NCBI GenBank assembly: GCA_015490295.1
Contig: WFYC01000043.1
Location: 1-35,549 of the forward strand
Reading direction: 5' to 3'
Origin: Hydrogenimonas sp.
GTDB taxonomy: Bacteria; Campylobacterota; Campylobacteria; Campylobacterales; Hydrogenimonadaceae
Length of the DNA stretch: 35,549 nucleotides
Positions 4,343-33,242 of the stretch are shown here, piece by piece. The position numbers and the translations under genes were made by a program. Every line of letters starts with the position of its first letter. Position 1 is the stretch's first letter. The notes beneath the pieces are model-generated. The model searched no databases. It was given only the letters and a program-made list of their open reading frames with translations, and was not told the DNA's origin.

Positions 4343-6609
4343 AGCTTTCGGGTAAGATAGAGCGGATACTCTTCGAAAAAGAGGGCTTTTTCGTCGCCAG
4401 ACTCGAGGGAGGTACAAAGATTTCCGGTACGTCGTCCGTCGCGCAGAGCGAAGCGCTGCAGGGCCAGGAGGTAGAGCTGACCGGTGAGTGGCAGGAGCAC
4501 CCAAGGTTCGGACCGCAGTTCGTTTTCGACAATCTTGAGATAAAGGGGAGCGAACTCTACTTCTACCTTACGAAAGTAGTAAAAGGTGTGGGCTCCAAAC
4601 TTGTAAAGAGACTCATCTCCCACTACGGAGAGGAGGAGCTGCTTCGGATTCTCGACGAAGAGCCCCAAAAGCTTCTGGAGTTCAAGGGGATAAAAGAGAA
4701 AAAGCTGTCGCAGATAACGAAAAGCTGGCAGCAGTACAAAGATATGCGCGATCTGGCGATGTTTCTGGCTCCATACAGGCTGGGCCAGTCTATAGTTGCT
4801 GAGATATACAGAACCTTTGTCGATAAAGAGAATCTGATAGATGCGATAAGAGAGAACCCCTATATAATAACGCGGGTCAAGGGTGTCGGATTCAAAAGAG
4901 CCGACGAGATGGCCCGCTCAATGGGGATCGACCCGAAGTCGCCGTTCAGAATAGAGGCGGCGATCAACTACTTGATGCGTGAAATAAGCGAAAGGCAGGG
5001 AAGCAGCGCGATAGAGCGGGAGCCGTTCTTGGATGCCGTATGCGAAGAGCTTGGTTTTACCGATGAGAGAGGCGCGGTGGAAGGTGTCATAGAGGGTCTG
5101 ATCGAACGGCAGATGCTCTACAGGGTAGGCGGAGATCTTGCGCATGCATACTACTTTGGCGCTGAAAAGGCGATATTCGATTTTTTCATAGAAAAGAGCG
5201 CTTTGGCAGGTGAACAGATTGTGGAAGATATAGAACGGTTTATCGCCGAAGAGGAGAAGAAAGCGGGTTTCATACTCGGAGAGCAGCAGAGGGAGGCGGT
5301 CAGGCTTCTAAACGGCGGTGTGCGCGCAATGGCTCTGGTAGGTTACGCCGGAACGGGAAAGAGTACAACCGCAAAAATGATGCTGAAGCTTCTGGAGCGT
5401 AGGTACGGCTATGACTCCATCATAACGACAGCGCTTAGCGGAATAGCTTCACAGCGGATACATGAGACTACAGGATACAGATCGGCAACCATTCAGAGTC
5501 TTCTTGTAGCGCATAAAGACAGAGATTTCTTCCCTTACGACGTAGTGCTTCTGGACGAGGCGTCGATGGTGAATTCACCCATCTTTTTCCAACTGGTTTC
5601 GAAACTGAAAGAGGATGCTACGCTGCTCGTTATCGGTGACGACGGGCAACTTCCGCCGATAGGAGCGGGCAACGTTCTGGCTGATATTGTTAAATATGAA
5701 CTGATCCCCCTCGTCAAGCTGACTACGATATACAGGCAGAACGAGGAGCAGGCACTTACGGTCATAGCCGACTCCATAAGGAGGGCGAAGCTGCCAGAAT
5801 ACAGAAGAAGCTATGCCGATTTCAGATTTGTCGATTTGAGTATTCCAAACTACTTCTCCAAGAGAAATTCGCTCTCGCAAAACGAAAAGAAAGAGCTTAG
5901 GGAAGATCATAACAGGCAGATACTTGAAACGGTCAAAAAGGAAGCGGTGTCGTATATCATGGAAGCAAGAAAACGCCTCGAAACCAAAGATATAAGAGGG
6001 TATCTTACACATATCCAGGTTATAACTCCTATGAAAGGGGGAATTTTGGGGAGCGAAGAGCTAAATAGACGGCTGCAGGCTCTTTTCAACCCGAACCCGA
6101 AACAGTGCGTCGATAGGGGGCTTTACAGCTTCGGTCTCTACGACAAGGTGGTTCATACGAAAAACGAAAATATGCCCTCATACTCTCCGGAGGCTTTCAA
6201 AAAGGGACTCGACCCGGTAGAGCAGAGAATTTTCAACGGGATGATAGGGCTGATTTTCAGGATGGAGCGTGAAGAGGAGGAGTGCTATGTATACTACCCG
6301 AATGAAGAGGTGGTTGTAAGGTACGGTTTCGATATGCTGGGAGAGTACCTGAACCTCGCTTATGCGCTTACGATTCACAAGACGCAGGGAATGGAGTATG
6401 AGACGGTCATTATTCCGATGAGCTACAGCCACTATATCATGCACAATACGAAGCTGCTCTATACGGCCGTAACCAGAGCGAAAAAGATGTGCATAGTGGT
6501 TGGCGAAGAGTCAGCATTCAAAAGCGCTTGCCAAAGAGTGGATACGACCGTCAGAAGAACCGTGCTCGCTCAACTTGCCATGGATGCACCCGTTGGAGCG
6601 GAGTCATAA
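4339..6609 (+). CDS. RecD2-like ATP-dependent DNA helicase (SF1B)
   Basis: A 756-residue RecD2-type 5'-3' helicase acting on DNA in repair or recombination without RecB and RecC. An N-terminal OB-like region (1-75) is followed by helix-hairpin-helix segments around KGIKEKK (116-122) and VKGVGFKRADE (180-190). Motif I is VGYAGTGKSTTA (334-345), motif II LLDEASM (404-410), and near the C-terminus motif VI-type IHKTQGMEYE and TAVTRAKK. All core motifs look intact and the length fits RecD2. It starts within the ATGA overlap with the YgjP gene. The following 195 bp up to the OmpA gene is AT-rich with no clear terminator. Confidence 0.92.
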   Translation: MKLSGKIERILFEKEGFFVARLEGGTKISGTSSVAQSEALQGQEVELTGEWQEHPRFGPQFVFDNLEIKGSELYFYLTKVVKGVGSKLVKRLISHYGEEELLRILDEEPQKLLEFKGIKEKKLSQITKSWQQYKDMRDLAMFLAPYRLGQSIVAEIYRTFVDKENLIDAIRENPYIITRVKGVGFKRADEMARSMGIDPKSPFRIEAAINYLMREISERQGSSAIEREPFLDAVCEELGFTDERGAVEGVIEGLIERQMLYRVGGDLAHAYYFGAEKAIFDFFIEKSALAGEQIVEDIERFIAEEEKKAGFILGEQQREAVRLLNGGVRAMALVGYAGTGKSTTAKMMLKLLERRYGYDSIITTALSGIASQRIHETTGYRSATIQSLLVAHKDRDFFPYDVVLLDEASMVNSPIFFQLVSKLKEDATLLVIGDDGQLPPIGAGNVLADIVKYELIPLVKLTTIYRQNEEQALTVIADSIRRAKLPEYRRSYADFRFVDLSIPNYFSKRNSLSQNEKKELREDHNRQILETVKKEAVSYIMEARKRLETKDIRGYLTHIQVITPMKGGILGSEELNRRLQALFNPNPKQCVDRGLYSFGLYDKVVHTKNENMPSYSPEAFKKGLDPVEQRIFNGMIGLIFRMEREEEECYVYYPNEEVVVRYGFDMLGEYLNLAYALTIHKTQGMEYETVIIPMSYSHYIMHNTKLLYTAVTRAKKMCIVVGEESAFKSACQRVDTTVRRTVLAQLAMDAPVGAES

Positions 6610-27771: not shown

Positions 27772-28005
27772 TCAAACCCTTCCCGATTTCACCATCGATA
27801 ATACCATAGGCAGATTGTACCCGTCATTCTCGTACCCTTCGTCGCGGCACGCTTCGCACTTGTCGCCCATCGGGCATATATCCTGCTCCAACAGCTCCTC
27901 GAGGGTCTGAAAACCGTTCTCTTTGATAACTTTGGCGATATCTGCTATCGTCAGATCGTTGCAGTGGCAGATAAGAAGGTCTGGATCCGGTTTCACTTTA
28001 CCCAC
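27772..28005 (-). CDS. BFD-like [2Fe-2S]-binding protein
   Basis: 77 residues of the bacterioferritin-associated-ferredoxin (Fer2_BFD) type. The first cysteine pair is ICHCND (Cys13, Cys15), and a later set lies in [10 protein letters not shown] (Cys44, Cys50, Cys53). The extra Cys and wider spacing differ slightly from classic Bfd (CxC and CxxC). Its start overlaps the end of msrA by 13 bp. Such domains pass electrons or sense iron. No bacterioferritin gene is nearby, so the partner may be a reductase elsewhere or MsrA-linked redox chemistry; the latter is speculation. Confidence 0.82.
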
Positions 28006-28589
28006 CCTTTATGGATCTTTTTGAACTTCTCCACCTTTGGTGCGACTACGGCTTGGCAGTACCCCTGGTAGGGGTTTTTTCTAAAGTAGTCCTGGTGGTA
28101 CTCCTCTGCCGGCCAGAATTTTACCAGCGGAGATATTTCGGTGACTATCGGGTCGTAGAAACGCTTCTGAGCCTCTTTTTTGGACGCTTCGGCGATCTTT
28201 TTCTGCTCTTCGTCACTGTAGAAAATTACGGAACGGTACTGAGTTCCCACATCGGCACCCTGCCTGTTCAGAGTAGTGGGGTCGTGTATGCTCCAGAAGA
28301 TTTCAAGAAGATCCCTAAACGCTACAACACTCGGATCGAACGTAATCTGCACCACCTCTGCATGGCCGGTCGCTCCGCTGCATACAGCGTCATAACTCGG
28401 ATTCTCGATACTGCCGCCGGCATAGCCGCTGACTACATCTTTTACCCCTTTAACCTCTTCGAATACCGCTTCGAGACACCAGAAACACCCTCCGCCAAGT
28501 ACCGCTTTTTCAGTTGACCCGGACATCTTCACTCCATTCCCTGCAAAAAGTGCGGCCGCAACGGCAGTTATAAGAATTTTTTTTATCAT
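27993..28589 (-). CDS. msrA: Peptide methionine sulfoxide reductase A
   Basis: Up to 198 residues. MsrA reduces methionine-S-sulfoxide in oxidised proteins. The catalytic motif GGCFWC (Cys35 nucleophile, Cys38) is intact, followed by [27 protein letters not shown] and the C-terminal [16 protein letters not shown]. The longest ATG start gives a signal-peptide-like N-terminus ([17 protein letters not shown]), hence periplasmic export. An internal ATG at 28526 has a better ribosome site (GGAGTG) and would give a cytosolic 177-residue enzyme. The upstream start is kept because the hydrophobic stretch looks functional. It overlaps the BFD-like gene. Confidence 0.93.
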
Positions 28590-28631: not shown

Positions 28632-29453
28632 TCAAGAGCCCAAAAACAGATATGCACCTGCTCCTATCGCGATGGCCGCAACAATGCGTTTTGCCATTGA
28701 GCCCAGCATATTGCCGATTTGGCAGCTAGTACAGCTGCTATATTTTTTTGCCTCCCAGCGGCCGAAGATAAAGTAGCCGAACATTAAGATGATTACGACT
28801 ACGACACCGATTTTGTCGAATCTGTACAAAGACGAGAGTGTCTGCTCGGATATGTTGAAGAGTTTTGCGAAGAGGGTGAGGAACATAAAGAACAGTATCT
28901 TGTCGCTTACACTTAGAAAGTAGACCCTCTTTGATGTTGGAGGGCACAGCTCCATTTCCGGGACGAGCCCGTTTTTCGCCAGTGCCTTTTCGACGGCCTC
29001 CCTCTGTTCTTTGGAGACTTTCGACAAAAAAGTTCCGCCGAAAGTGTAGTCGATCTTTCTCTGTATTATGCGTGCCAGATCGCCGGAAGCCTCCATATGG
29101 TGCTGTTTACCGTGTCTGTCCTCATAGACCAGCTTGATAGTCTCGTACCTGGGGATCTCTATCTCTATATCGGGATAGTACAGAGTCTTCTCCTTTTTGG
29201 AAACCGAGCCTTCGGAGTTGAGTATCCTGGGGTTTATAAGCTCCAGTATCGATCCGTTAGAATCTTTTACGAGTACGATATTGTAGGGGTAGCCCGTCTG
29301 TATAGCGGCGAGACCTTCAGCACCGTTCTCTTCCATGATCTCCTTCATCATATCGATCACTTCAAAAAGGGTTTCATCGAACTTTCTAACATCGGTAGAT
29401 GGTATCGTTATGCGATCATCCGGATAAACTACGAGCTCTTTTTTTACGGACAT
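28632..29453 (-). CDS. Membrane-anchored, catalytically dead peptide-deformylase homologue
   Basis: 273 residues. The N-terminal ~165 residues follow the peptide deformylase fold: motif 1 is well kept (AEGLAAIQTGYP, 46-57), but motif 2 is EGSVS (81-85) in place of EGCLS, and motif 3 is IQRKIDYTFGGTF (130-142) in place of QHExDHLxGxLF. So the metal-binding Cys and both His, plus the catalytic Glu, are all replaced. The C-terminal ~100 residues hold about three hydrophobic segments (about 183-199, 214-231, 256-271) with a CTSC motif (241-244) between the last two. The ATG at 29453 has an AGAGG ribosome site. It lies downstream of sqr and a 54-residue gene. An enzymatic deformylase role is unlikely; the true role is unknown. 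Confidence 0.8.
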   Translation of the reverse strand: MSVKKELVVYPDDRITIPSTDVRKFDETLFEVIDMMKEIMEENGAEGLAAIQTGYPYNIVLVKDSNGSILELINPRILNSEGSVSKKEKTLYYPDIEIEIPRYETIKLVYEDRHGKQHHMEASGDLARIIQRKIDYTFGGTFLSKVSKEQREAVEKALAKNGLVPEMELCPPTSKRVYFLSVSDKILFFMFLTLFAKLFNISEQTLSSLYRFDKIGVVVVIILMFGYFIFGRWEAKKYSSCTSCQIGNMLGSMAKRIVAAIAIGAGAYLFLGS

Positions 29454-29498: not shown

Positions 29499-29520
29499 GG
29501 TCCGCGCAAAAGCGCGGGCC
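29499..29520. other. Strong hairpin between small ORF and pseudo-deformylase gene
   Basis: CCGCGC (29502-29507), loop AAAA, GCGCGG (29512-29517), extended by a wobble pair and two G-C pairs to about 9 bp. It lies in the 72-bp gap between two minus-strand genes. The minus-strand side is followed by mixed sequence and no T-run, so processing or mRNA stabilisation of the sqr message is as likely as termination. Confidence 0.5.
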
Positions 29521-29525
29521 GATTT

Positions 29526-29690
29526 TCAGTGGTGACTTTTTTTGACGACCGCAAGCATCTTGATATTTATAACGATGAAGCGGATAAACTGCCAAATAAT
29601 ACAGGTTCTCATGAAGCGGACGAAGCCCGTGGGAACCATTGTGGTAAAGCTCGGTTCGTAGGGCTTTATATTCTTTTCGATATGTTCCAT
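29526..29690 (-). CDS. 54-residue basic amphipathic small protein after sqr
   Basis: A small open frame with a strong ribosome site (AGGAGAAAGA before the ATG) 21 bp after the sqr stop. It begins MEHIEKNIKPYEPSFTTM and ends with an Arg/Lys-spaced hydrophobic stretch (RFMRTCIIWQFIRF, then IVINIKMLAVVKKSHH). The pattern suggests a membrane-surface or single-span helix. It is absent from ordinary length-filtered gene calls. Position and ribosome site make it a good candidate for a real partner of the sulfide:quinone oxidoreductase, perhaps aiding membrane attachment or regulation. The function is not known to me. Confidence 0.75.
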   Translation of the reverse strand: MEHIEKNIKPYEPSFTTMVPTGFVRFMRTCIIWQFIRFIVINIKMLAVVKKSHH

Positions 29691-29711: not shown

Positions 29712-31172
29712 TTATTCCGGTATCAGTGTCCAGCCAGGCTTAAGTTTGGCTTTGTAGAGGAACATATGGTGCAGTATATGCTTGATCCAGTGTCCCGCAA
29801 GGCCGATTTCGCCGAATGTATAGTCGATATCTCGCCCTATTCCGGGGTACTTTTCGAAATCGGGTACGACCGGGTAGACAGTCAAAGATGCAGCCATACC
29901 GTCAGTCAGACCCTTGCCGGCAGAGGCGACACAGGCCGCTCCCATCTCCGCCATAGATGCGTGATGAGTCGGTTTGTCACTATTCTTTTCGATCATGTCG
30001 CGAATGGACATCGCGACGGTTTTACCGATGATTCCTGAAGGCATTCCTGTTCTTGGAGGGGTAGGATTGATAGGAGTGCCGTTGGGGCTTTTCATCGGTT
30101 TGGATATACCGTGAGGCGGCGCAAAAGCGATTCCTACGGCGAAGATATTGGGATAGTCCGGATTTTGATAGGTTCTCGGCCAGTCACTGGCTTTCCACTC
30201 CTCGTAAGGCTTGCCGCTATAGTCGGCATCTACCTTTAAAAAGCCATTCGGAGCGAACAGTTTGTCGGTCATATCGCTTCCGTCCTTTGCGTAAGCTTTG
30301 AGACCGACACCCGAAAACGGCGGAATCAGCATCGAAAAATCGAACTCCAGCTCGCCCGTGGAGCCGTCGAGCTGCTCATAGTGAATCTTTCCCTCTTCCA
30401 CCTTGTTTACGTGAGCGCCGATGATCCACGGAATTCCTCTTTCTGTATACAATGACTCGGCGAAGAGGCGGGAGCTTGCCGCATAACCGCCGCGCTTCAT
30501 ATGCAAGCCGCCGATTCCGAAGTCACCGAGAAATGATTCGTTTGAGATCCATGTTATTTCCGCCAGATCACGTACTCCGGCTTTTCTGAGTTCATGGTCG
30601 ACATTGAAAATGTACTCGAATGCAGCTCCCTGGCATGTACACATGCCGTGACCTGTACCGATTACGATTTTCTGACGCTCGCCGCCTTTCATTTTTGCTA
30701 TCAGCTTCTGGAGCTCTTCGTTGGCATGCGTCGCGTGGTCTGCAGTACATACCGAAACCGTATAACCGTTGTCGGGACCGAGACCTTCGGTCGCTCCAAA
30801 ATTGAGTTTCGGTCCCGTCGCATTGATCAGATAGTCGTACGAGACAAGCTCTTTTTCACCCTCTTTGCCCTGTCCTGTATACTCTATTGTTACATAAGGC
30901 ACATCTTCCGCCTCTCCGCCGTCGGGATGAATTGAGACCGCTTTTGCCTGGCGGTAATCTATACCCACTTTTTCATAAACAGGGGCGAGGTCGAACACGA
31001 CATCATCTTTTGTCATCTGGCCGACACCGACCCAGATATTTGAAGGAATCCAGTTCCATTTGCTGTTTGGCGTAACGACTACCACCTCGTGCTGTGGTCC
31101 AAGCCAGTCACGCAAAAAAGTGGCTGCTGTATGTCCAGAGACACCGGCACCCAATACAACGACTCTAGCCAT
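29712..31172 (-). CDS. sqr: Sulfide:quinone oxidoreductase
   Basis: A 486-residue FAD-dependent SQR that oxidises sulfide and reduces the membrane quinone pool at the inner membrane. The N-terminal dinucleotide motif is VVVLGAGVSGHTAA (GAGVSG 8-13), a second NATG-type motif is INATGPKLNFG, and the FAD-binding C-terminal site is FAVGIAFAPP. Candidate redox cysteines are Cys142, Cys178, Cys180 (GMCTCQG) and Cys414 (GAACVAS). The C-terminus (HWIKHILHHMFLYKAK) is amphipathic, as expected for a monotopic membrane anchor. The ATG has an AAAGGAG ribosome site. The SQR subtype (I-VI) cannot be assigned by eye. It probably heads an operon with the small ORF and pseudo-deformylase gene. Confidence 0.93.
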   Translation of the reverse strand: MARVVVLGAGVSGHTAATFLRDWLGPQHEVVVVTPNSKWNWIPSNIWVGVGQMTKDDVVFDLAPVYEKVGIDYRQAKAVSIHPDGGEAEDVPYVTIEYTGQGKEGEKELVSYDYLINATGPKLNFGATEGLGPDNGYTVSVCTADHATHANEELQKLIAKMKGGERQKIVIGTGHGMCTCQGAAFEYIFNVDHELRKAGVRDLAEITWISNESFLGDFGIGGLHMKRGGYAASSRLFAESLYTERGIPWIIGAHVNKVEEGKIHYEQLDGSTGELEFDFSMLIPPFSGVGLKAYAKDGSDMTDKLFAPNGFLKVDADYSGKPYEEWKASDWPRTYQNPDYPNIFAVGIAFAPPHGISKPMKSPNGTPINPTPPRTGMPSGIIGKTVAMSIRDMIEKNSDKPTHHASMAEMGAACVASAGKGLTDGMAASLTVYPVVPDFEKYPGIGRDIDYTFGEIGLAGHWIKHILHHMFLYKAKLKPGWTLIPE

Positions 31173-31430: not shown

Positions 31431-31817
31431 TCACCCTTCGGCCTCTTCGACCAGAACCAGATTGTTGAGTTCATATCTTTTAAGGATATTTAAAAGCTTT
31501 ATGATGCGCTCATACCGAACATGTTTGTCTATGCGCAAAACAACCGGCCTCTTTTTCTCTTTGACTTTTGCAAGTTCACTCTCCAGTTCAGCCATCTTCA
31601 GCTTGATACCGTTTAGTGCGACACTCTTTTCGGAGAGCTCTATTGAGATCTCTTTTTTCTCCAGGACCTTTTCACCTTTTTGTGCGCTCGGAAGGTTAAG
31701 AAGCAGTGCCAGTTCCTCCTTTTTGAAAACTGAGGTGACAAGAAAAAATATAAGAAGCAGAAAGACAACATCGACAAGCGGCGTCATATCCAAAAGCAGC
31801 GATTTGCGCCGTCTCAT
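31431..31817 (-). CDS. exbD: ExbD/TolR-type biopolymer transport protein
   Basis: 128 residues with one N-terminal membrane helix carrying the essential aspartate (MTPLVDVVFLLLIFFLVTS, Asp16) and a periplasmic C-terminal domain. It forms the proton-harvesting complex with ExbB that energises TonB. Its ATG overlaps the exbB stop (ATGA), and it is the third gene of tonB-exbB-exbD. The gap that follows, to sqr, is AT-rich and lacks a clear terminator. Confidence 0.92.
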   Translation of the reverse strand: MRRRKSLLLDMTPLVDVVFLLLIFFLVTSVFKKEELALLLNLPSAQKGEKVLEKKEISIELSEKSVALNGIKLKMAELESELAKVKEKKRPVVLRIDKHVRYERIIKLLNILKRYELNNLVLVEEAEG

Positions 31818-32341
31818 CTTTTAGACCCGTAAAAACGTACCAGCAGCTCCTCTTCAAGCTGCGATTCGATATTGTCCAGATAGGCTATAAGGTAGTTGTA
31901 TCCTATAGTATGTATGATAGCCACGACAAGCCCCCCGACGGTTGTGACAAGAGCCATCGATATCCCTTTTGCAAATACGCTTGGGTCACCCATCCCCACT
32001 TTTCCTATCGCTTCGAATGCCATCAAGACACCTACAACCGTTCCCAGGAGGCCGAAAAGAGTGGCAGTGGTGGCTATTATCTTTATCGTAGGCATCCCTT
32101 TTTCCATTTTCCTCAGCCTGCTTTGTAGAAGCTCTTTTACAATCAGCAGTACAGCTCTTTTGTCTCCGGACGCTATGGAGGAGAACTCGTCGGCTATCTC
32201 ATCCGCGTAATCTCTCTTTTTTCTGTTAAATATAATGTATTGAACCCATTTGGTAATCATCAGAGCGATGCCGACGGTATTCATGGCTATCAGAATCTCC
32301 ATGATAACTCCGCCCGCTTTTATATATTCAATAATTCCCAT
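31814..32341 (-). CDS. exbB: ExbB/TolQ-type proton channel protein
   Basis: 175 residues with three membrane segments: about 11-36, 88-112 (ATLFGLLGTVVGVLMAFEA, the conserved channel helix) and 125-148 (ISMALVTTVGGLVVAIIHT). It partners ExbD to drive TonB with the proton gradient. A strong AAGGAAAG ribosome site precedes the ATG, 19 bp after the tonB stop. The size fits the shorter ExbB group common in Campylobacterota. Confidence 0.92.
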   Translation of the reverse strand: MGIIEYIKAGGVIMEILIAMNTVGIALMITKWVQYIIFNRKKRDYADEIADEFSSIASGDKRAVLLIVKELLQSRLRKMEKGMPTIKIIATTATLFGLLGTVVGVLMAFEAIGKVGMGDPSVFAKGISMALVTTVGGLVVAIIHTIGYNYLIAYLDNIESQLEEELLVRFYGSKR

Positions 32342-32360
32342 ACTCTTTCCTTATTATTTG

Positions 32361-33122
32361 TTATCTCTTCTTCAGCATATAGTTTATAGGTACTTTTAAC
32401 GTCAATTCTCCGGTATCGAACGCATCCGGAAGAGGAGCGAACTTTCCGATTCTCTCCAGAGTCTTTACAGCAGCCCTGTTCAGCCTGCTGTGACGGCAGG
32501 CTGAAACGACCTCGACACTCTTTATCGAGCCATCTTTCAAGATGGTAAACTTCAGTTCCACCTTACCTGTCTGATGGAGTTTTTTTGCACTTCTGGGATA
32601 GTATTTGTTTCTTTCAATCTTCTCCCTTACCGCTGTAAGATAGGCCGCTTTGATCTTCTCTATCTTCTCACTGTCGGTTTTTTGGGCTGAAACTGCCGGC
32701 CTGGATGCAGGCTGCGGCAGAATGCGTTTCGGCGGCTCTTTGGGAGGTGCGGCGGGCACGGCAGAAGGAGGTACAGGTTTTGGAGGCTTGACTATCTCTT
32801 TTTTCAAAGGTTTCGGCTTTGGTGCAGGCTTCGGTTTATGGACGGGTTTATGTTTCGGAACCGGCTTCGGCTTATCGATTTGTTTTGGTTTCGGTTTTGG
32901 TTCAGGTTTTGGTTCAGGTTTTGGTTCAGGTTCGACCTTCTCCTGACACCTGCAGACACGCTCCGGTGGGGCAGGCTTTACGGAAGCCAGGTTGATATAT
33001 ATTTTTCTCTCTTGCACAGCAGGCTTCAAAGAGGGAGTATCTATGCGGGTGTAGTAGAAAACAAGAGTCTCGGCAGCGAAAACAGAAACCAAAATCGATA
33101 TAAATAGATAGGGTTTTTTCAT
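32361..33122 (-). CDS. tonB: TonB energy transducer
   Basis: 253 residues. One N-terminal anchor helix (4-24) is followed by a Pro/Lys-rich periplasmic spacer (about 63-130, PEPK and KPKP repeats) and a C-terminal TonB domain (about 158-253; YYPRSAKKLHQTGKVELKF, LKDGSIKSVEVV). It transmits ExbBD energy to outer-membrane receptors. Two oddities are seen: the anchor helix reads LFISILVSVFAAETLVFYY and lacks the histidine of the usual SxxxH motif, and a CRC pair (Cys57, Cys59) lies just before the spacer. The ATG at 33122 is preferred to a TTG 15 bp upstream. No TonB-dependent receptor is in the window, so the cargo is unknown. Confidence 0.9.
   Translation of the reverse strand: MKKPYLFISILVSVFAAETLVFYYTRIDTPSLKPAVQERKIYINLASVKPAPPERVCRCQEKVEPEPKPEPKPEPKPKPKQIDKPKPVPKHKPVHKPKPAPKPKPLKKEIVKPPKPVPPSAVPAAPPKEPPKRILPQPASRPAVSAQKTDSEKIEKIKAAYLTAVREKIERNKYYPRSAKKLHQTGKVELKFTILKDGSIKSVEVVSACRHSRLNRAAVKTLERIGKFAPLPDAFDTGELTLKVPINYMLKKR
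32893..32928. repeat. Three perfect 12-bp tandem repeats in tonB
   Basis: The unit ggttttggttca occurs three times head to tail with degenerate copies on both sides. It encodes PEPK-type repeats of the TonB spacer. Copy-number change would stay in frame and vary the spacer length. Confidence 0.85.
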
Positions 33123-33242
33123 CTGTTCATCAAGCAATGTTCACCTGCCGGAATATTAAAGATTAAATAGTAGGTATTATATTGAAGTTATGTTATATAT
33201 TTGTTAATTTTCAGCCTGCAGCAGCGTAATTAGGCCGATTCT

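Follow-up and report, generated by a model that had tools for sequence, protein, structure and literature searches.

The window, by which we mean the whole analysed stretch of 35,549 nucleotides from Hydrogenimonas sp., carries a gene for a peptide deformylase (PDF) homologue fused to a CxxC membrane domain, which we call pseudo-peptide-deformylase (pPDF). Judged from sequence, its membership of the peptide deformylase superfamily is beyond doubt. Throughout the family the catalytic residues are lost and the sequence appears to be held under selection, and we therefore regard pPDF as a conserved pseudoenzyme. On balance we lean towards the reading that in pPDF a PDF fold without metal has come to serve, on the cytoplasmic side of the membrane, as an accessory to a sulfide:quinone oxidoreductase (SQR) unit. 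If this is true, it is a clear example of energy metabolism taking over a translation enzyme. An earlier note on this DNA had proposed that a dead deformylase fold is reused at the membrane; the fold, the family-wide loss and the linkage to SQR speak for it, and its placement of motif 2 has to be corrected. The features are listed in Table 1.

Table 1. Coordinates of the features in the window (residue numbers refer to the encoded protein)
Feature	Position	Strand	Remarks
pPDF, pseudo-peptide-deformylase fused to a CxxC membrane domain	28632..29453	-	273 aa
PDF-fold domain, residues 1-160, predicted cytoplasmic	28974..29453	-	PF01327 match at 5-151, structure model, Foldseek
Motif 1, AEGLAAIQTG, residues 45-54	29292..29321	-	alignment with canonical PDFs
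True motif 2, EKTLYYP, residues 88-94, replacing EGCLSVP	29172..29192	-	metal Cys replaced by Thr90
Motif 3, QRKIDY, residues 131-136, replacing QHExDH	29046..29063	-	both His and the Glu lost
Membrane domain, residues 166-273	28635..28958	-	three helices in the model
Cys170 of a CP motif before TM1	28944..28946	-	59/63 members
CTSC, Cys241 and Cys244, TM2-TM3 loop, predicted cytoplasmic	28722..28733	-	each Cys in 63/63 members
G+C-rich stem-loop, before pPDF	29499..29520	-	5 nt after the stop of the small gene
SQR partner gene, 54 aa, conserved, unannotated	29526..29690	-	stop included; protein ends ...RTCIIWQFIRFIVINIKMLAVVKKSHH
sqr, sulfide:quinone oxidoreductase	29712..31172	-	486 aa; PF07992; Cys142, Cys178, Cys180, Cys414
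msrA, methionine sulfoxide reductase A	27993..28589	-	behind pPDF, same strand

The earlier note had the position, frame and length of the gene right: the ORF runs on the minus strand from an ATG at 29453 to a stop at 28632. The protein matches PF01327 with 116.8 bits (E 8.8e-34, cut-off 22.8), which places it in the Pfam PDF family, and it matches solved PDFs with E 4e-18. The score with the equivalog model TIGR00079 is 87 bits, below the cut-off of 103.95, and this model matches 31 of the 31 pPDF family members scanned at E <= 0.001. The nearest named relatives of the gene come from a Campylobacterales metagenome bin (90% identity) and from two Hydrogenimonas sp. bins (76% identity in one, 66% over a fragment in the other).

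A structure model of pPDF was built from 48 rows, including 45 deformylases from viral contigs. It has a mean pLDDT of 81, with 90-98 per ten-residue block over residues 11-140; a model from three sequences (pLDDT 36) was left uninterpreted. In a Foldseek search of the PDB the top match is the H. pylori PDF (E 8.3e-17, target TM 0.88, rmsd 1.9), and the best 50 of 162 matches with E <= 0.001 are all PDFs. A model unlike PDF would have spoken against the original claim; the one obtained does match PDF. Because the added rows are deformylases, the PDF part of the model leans on them. The sequence matches are independent of the model, and together with Foldseek they put the claimed homology far above chance.

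pPDF shares its fold with peptide deformylase (def; PF01327, TIGR00079; H. pylori 2EW5, E. coli 1BS4) and is 34% identical to the H. pylori enzyme in the Foldseek alignment. The two have in common GLAAIQ and the Glu88, Arg102, Gln131 and Asp135 positions. Unlike PDF, pPDF lacks the EGCLS Cys, the HExxH Glu and the second HExxH His in 63/63 aligned members and the first His in 61/63, bears an extra membrane domain of about 110 aa, and is an extra paralogue beside the canonical enzyme.

Motif 1 is present as it had been described, AEGLAAIQTG, in which Ala stands for the first Gly of GxGLAAxQ; its Gln52 is retained in 60 of the 63 full-length members. Motif 2 had been read as EGSVS in place of EGCLS. 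This was a misplacement: in the alignment with canonical PDFs of the same genus EGSVS (residues 81-85) stands opposite RGSTT and starts seven residues upstream of the true motif 2. The reading of motif 3 is borne out by the alignment, in which the canonical PDFs of the genus have QHEMDH opposite QRKIDY. Thus the loss of all metal ligands and of the catalytic Glu holds despite the shift of motif 2.

The comparison of motifs 2 and 3 across homologues, which the earlier note had suggested, gives the same picture. Position 90 (the PDF Cys) is occupied among the 63 members by T in 38, S in 13, D in 11 and N in one, and by C in none. At position 132 (the first His) there are 54 R, seven Q and two H; at position 133 (the catalytic Glu) 52 K, six Q, four M, one T and no Glu; and His is found at position 136 (the second His) in 0/63. 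Homologues of the same neighbourhood that keep both Cys and HExxH do not occur among them, the 50 SQR-linked members included. Arg or Lys mostly occupies the former metal site across the family, and to judge by these residues the deformylase mode of metal binding is closed to all 63 members.

To find the family, the membrane domain by itself was used as a query against 398 genomes of the order. It was detected in at least 120 genomes and in 24 of 87 genera. The number of 120 is a lower bound, since one locus fetched from a genome without a match (L118) does have a pPDF that the search missed. In the genus of the window the fusion is found in 7 of 18 genomes, one copy being a contig-end fragment. 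We fetched 60 of the matches from the 120 genomes, hand-picked across the score range and the families, as well as six further loci from the window's genus. The alignment of 63 full-length members, which comprises 57 of these 60, the window's own copy and five others of its genus, spans eight families of one order. P11, R23, N74, E88, R102, D135, C241 and C244 are invariant in all 63, and Q131 is kept in 62. In the closest pair (the window and G012) dN/dS is 0.042 for the PDF part and 0.046 for the membrane part. Selection was measured on this one unsaturated pair and is elsewhere read from conservation; for most other pairs only the low pN is informative, because synonymous sites are saturated.

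In a tree of PDF parts the 63 pPDFs separate from 30 canonical PDFs with support 1.0 and a branch length of 0.99. Among 328 genomes of the phylum, a profile search had matches in 62, two of them weak, all within the order, in a set for which the number of genomes from outside the order is not given. One scan of viral contigs with the alignment of dead PDFs found no relative. Two scans of viral contigs with canonical-PDF alignments gave no match, yet a DNA pattern gave at least 120 deformylase-motif stretches. The scans are therefore insensitive, and the absence of pPDF from viral contigs is weakly supported.

The deformylase function itself appears to be provided by another gene. A second, uninterrupted PDF of canonical score is encoded in 47 of 50 pPDF genomes. 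Among these 50, a canonical PDF was not found in G370 and G154. In G154 clpP is cut by the contig start, and in G370 the contig, to judge from the locus length, ends close to the point at which def is expected to begin after clpP and a GGDEF-type gene, by comparison with G274; both misses fit contig ends beside clpP. In G003 (L025), a single-contig genome, the only canonical-type deformylase found appears disrupted by a stop and by shifts. The 20 additional canonical PDFs fetched from the order all have EGCLS and all have HExxH, and motif 3 reads QHExDH in 19 of the 20 and QHEMEH in G057. In the window's genome, which is 82% complete, fmt is present, and neither clpP nor a canonical def was found. 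As the 82% holds fmt without clpP or def, def probably lies in the missing part.

The C-terminal part of pPDF had been described as a three-helix membrane domain. The model has helices at residues 182-198, 203-210, 214-237 and 243-272, and the first, third and fourth of them agree with that description; a hydropathy scan (19 residues, threshold 1.6) flags only the first two membrane segments. The pLDDT is below 50 at residues 167-179 and 239-248, the stretches that hold Cys170 and the CxxC. The CTSC motif is where it had been reported, at residues 241-244. Four members lack Cys170; three of these have CTGC and one has CTNC in place of CTSC. The segment before TM1 contains 2.29 K+R on average, the TM1-TM2 loop 0.90 and the TM2-TM3 loop 3.38, a distribution that by the positive-inside rule would place both the PDF domain and the CxxC at the cytoplasmic face. 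Profile searches of Pfam, NCBIfam and the PDB with the membrane domain gave nothing significant. The FeoB-associated Cys-rich membrane protein family (PF12669) is matched weakly by 3 of 17 pPDF membrane-domain sequences (best E 0.0087). This match is too weak to count and is probably due to chance: the likeness is one of name, a small Cys-rich membrane protein, and no link to iron transport is seen among the clustered neighbours of pPDF.

Neighbouring genes were clustered for 67 loci, i.e., the 60 fetched, the window and the six others of its genus. In 50 loci, which come from eight families, an sqr gene precedes pPDF on the same strand; the next neighbour cluster covers 19 loci. The linked loci are all full-length, so that the survey of sqr linkage proposed earlier yields 50 of 63 full-length loci, a figure for hand-picked loci and not for a random draw. 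The remaining 13 have no sqr nearby, though their genomes hold sqr, and four partial loci are located at contig ends.

The claim that the gene lies beside sulfide oxidation genes proved sound: the upstream protein has the FAD-binding fold (PF07992) and, in the alignment to 3HYV and 3SZ0, the three conserved cysteines of SQR. These features (Cys142, Cys180 and Cys414) are common to known SQRs, from which the protein differs by its 486 aa, by an extra invariant Cys178 (CTC) and by a partner gene of about 54 aa directly behind. Cys142, Cys178, Cys180 and Cys414 are each present in 70/70 sequences. SQR together with the named relatives suggests that the hosts oxidise sulfur. The ORFs upstream of sqr (31431-33137 of the window, minus strand) look like ExbD, ExbB and a Pro/Lys-rich TonB. 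The closest solved structure is that of Aquifex aeolicus SQR (3HYV, E 6.7e-44). According to the review PMC4584964, most Epsilonproteobacteria possess SQR types II, IV and VI, of which type IV clusters with type I, the type of the Aquifex enzyme. From the Aquifex match and these statements, the SQR here is probably type IV of the Pham/Marcia scheme.

The 54-aa gene between sqr and pPDF was absent from the earlier note. It was found by simple reading in 47 of the 50 linked loci and by profile search in the other three (G093, G257, G154). The pattern R.C..WQ..RF..IN.KM..VV.KSH is present in most copies, and the protein, which looks membrane-active, has no match in Pfam, NCBIfam or the PDB. Its Cys is conserved in the order and missing in one of 18 loci without pPDF. 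The tail of the small protein has Thr after K/R-M in 1/47 pPDF-linked loci versus 11/18 loci without pPDF (Fisher 3.8e-7, kinship ignored). We left this correlation out of the evidence because it may be a matter of shared ancestry.

Genome counts relate the three genes to each other. With a threshold of E <= 1e-100 for SQR, the 398 genomes of the order include 194 with SQR, 195 with the small protein and 190 with both. Among the pPDF genomes 116/120 have SQR (Fisher 1.7e-41, kinship ignored). The four without an SQR match are G004 and G038, where pPDF stands at a contig start, G258, which is 57% complete, and G360, in which the small gene adjoins pPDF. Conversely, 78 of the 194 SQR genomes have no pPDF match, some of them, e.g., G222, being misses. 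These counts, which ignore kinship, make sqr and the small gene a near-obligatory pair with pPDF as an optional third, and since 78 of 194 SQR genomes show no pPDF, SQR works without it. We fetched 20 sqr loci from genomes without a pPDF match, L118 among them; in 18, sqr and the small gene are followed by neither pPDF nor a lone membrane domain. In L123 (G148) a stand-alone membrane domain of 98 aa with CTGC (5051-5347, plus strand) follows sqr and the small gene; it has no PDF domain and no Cys170.

The sqr-small pair extends beyond the phylum. On a plasmid of Candidatus Thiodictyon syntrophicum (L275, Gammaproteobacteria) SQR is 64% identical without gaps, and the small gene was detected by tblastn. 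On a plasmid of Marivivens sp. JLT3646 (L281, Alphaproteobacteria) SQR is 60% identical and is followed by a 52-aa gene that is alike by eye and gave no tblastn match. In these two small genes the conserved Cys is replaced by Ser or Phe. No pPDF was found beside SQR on either plasmid.

The stem-loop in the window has counterparts behind the stop of the small gene in most sqr-small loci, 0-19 nt away (median 6-7). Its sequence varies between loci and its structure recurs. Of 52 loci that have pPDF or the lone membrane domain, 50 show a stem-loop below -6 kcal/mol, as do 14 of 18 that have neither; this count had no shuffle control. Compared with mononucleotide shuffles, 43-44 of 47 gaps between the small gene and pPDF fold more stably (z < -2). 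A T-rich tail follows in only seven of those 52 loci and four of those 18, and the stem-loop is perhaps an mRNA 3'-end stabiliser with read-through. We rejected the hairpin as a feature of the pPDF locus: since it is also present in 14/18 loci without pPDF, it belongs to the sqr-small unit.

The gene msrA follows pPDF in 7/7 loci of the window's genus (L103 being a fragment). In pPDF-less loci of the same genus it comes directly after the small gene in three of four (L105-L107), and L104 has no msrA in its contig. Outside the genus msrA was seen in one locus, six genes from pPDF.

Under the reading that we favour, a duplicated peptide deformylase would have lost its metal site and kept its fold, the dead deformylase would have gained a membrane domain with CxxC, and pPDF would have joined the SQR unit as an accessory, in the order sqr, partner of about 54 aa, pPDF. 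Its partner in function would be the membrane-bound SQR. The CxxC domain would sit at the membrane by SQR and the small partner, which has its own Cys, conserved in the order. There it may take up or pass on the sulfane sulfur of SQR, or keep the thiols of SQR in the right state; the handling of sulfane sulfur is suggested by position and chemistry only. The metal-free PDF fold would serve as a docking or ligand-binding module. That L123 has, after sqr and the small gene, the CxxC membrane domain and nothing else of pPDF suggests that this domain is the part working with SQR. Apart from a few residues of the fold, only the CxxC never changes, and it persists in L123 in the absence of a PDF domain. 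A membrane thiol module working with SQR is the most economical reading. A more specific version, possible and rather doubtful, is a three-part membrane complex of SQR, the small partner with a Cys at the membrane interface, and pPDF, whose CxxC would take sulfane sulfur from SQR and pass it to the cytoplasm. If true, a translation-maturation enzyme fold has been turned into a sulfur-relay subunit, and the SQR type here is not a one-protein enzyme.

Other readings explain parts of these data. PDF binds fMet peptides through the motif 1 region, so the dead domain might bind the N-formyl-Met of nascent SQR or small protein and aid their insertion without deformylating them. The retention of Gln52 in 60/63 members, the fold left intact in the model and the place of pPDF behind two proteins thought to be membrane-associated agree with such an assembly factor. 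We nevertheless consider it unlikely, as 78 of 194 SQR genomes have no pPDF match, the first Gly of motif 1 is lost in the window's copy, and both the invariant CxxC and the stand-alone CxxC domain behind sqr-small would be left unexplained. It is distinctly unlikely that pPDF is a membrane protein of some other function that shares a transcription unit with SQR and has no working link to it. The 13 of 63 unlinked loci and the same 78 genomes are what one would expect of a mere neighbour, but strand and order are the same in 50 of 63 loci from eight families and 116 of 120 carriers have SQR, the four exceptions being two contig ends, a genome 57% complete and G360 with the small gene beside pPDF.

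A sensor of sulfide or redox state, whose CxxC (with Cys170) would be modified by polysulfide or metal and whose PDF domain would signal onward, seems very unlikely to us: invariant cysteines at the predicted cytoplasmic membrane face beside sqr would suit it, but no regulator recurs beside pPDF across families, and the only neighbours that most loci have in common are sqr and the small gene. The replacements in the former active site follow a theme (QRK.D in most members), and E88 and D135 are kept in 63/63 and Q131 in 62/63, as if a Thr/Arg/Lys/Tyr set had been rebuilt for other hydrolysis or transfer without the usual metal. A catalytic set is expected to be fixed, however, and the positions vary (T/S/D/N at 90, R/Q/H at 132, K/Q/M/T at 133), which makes a rebuilt site highly improbable. 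Finally, the loss of all catalytic residues and the broken copy in Sulfurovum mangrovi could point to a decaying deformylase gene or a sequencing artefact. For the lineage at hand this is practically ruled out by the open frame and conserved replacements in 63 members, a dN/dS of about 0.04 in the closest pair, the invariant CxxC and the canonical PDF encoded elsewhere in the genomes.

Dead-PDF paralogues also occur away from sqr, in two groups (L049, L050, L055, L059-L062, L065, L066; and L072, L076, L078, L083). Members of one group have a YPTTPSLEFGANVRHF-type start. One group lies in part near genes that we take to be recR- and trpE-like. Two genomes, G133 and G388, each have both a linked and an unlinked dead-PDF copy.

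In the open-licence literature that we searched there was no report of an inactive peptide deformylase, none that ties peptide deformylase to SQR in Sulfurimonas, to pseudoenzymes or to Sulfurovum, and none on a small membrane protein partnering sqr. The locus also shows a near-obligatory tiny partner of a common SQR, one that Pfam and NCBIfam both lack. This partner bears on the open questions of quinone binding and products in the different SQR types (PMC4584964). The E. coli PDF entries with hydrosulfide, 4AZ4 and 4AL2, are among the listed Foldseek matches of the pPDF model; they are a lead that the canonical PDF site may bind sulfide, and say nothing on pPDF.

Scored by profile, an entire family of one order passes for peptide deformylase, and the one annotated record examined gives its member that name. 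In this record, Sulfurovum mangrovi NZ_CP087125.1 (L274), the pPDF copy is broken by stops and annotated as two pieces of 'peptide deformylase'; SQR is named 'FAD-dependent oxidoreductase' and the small gene 'hypothetical protein'. The 395-kb record is labelled a plasmid and holds rpsI and rplM together with the sqr/small/pPDF gene group.
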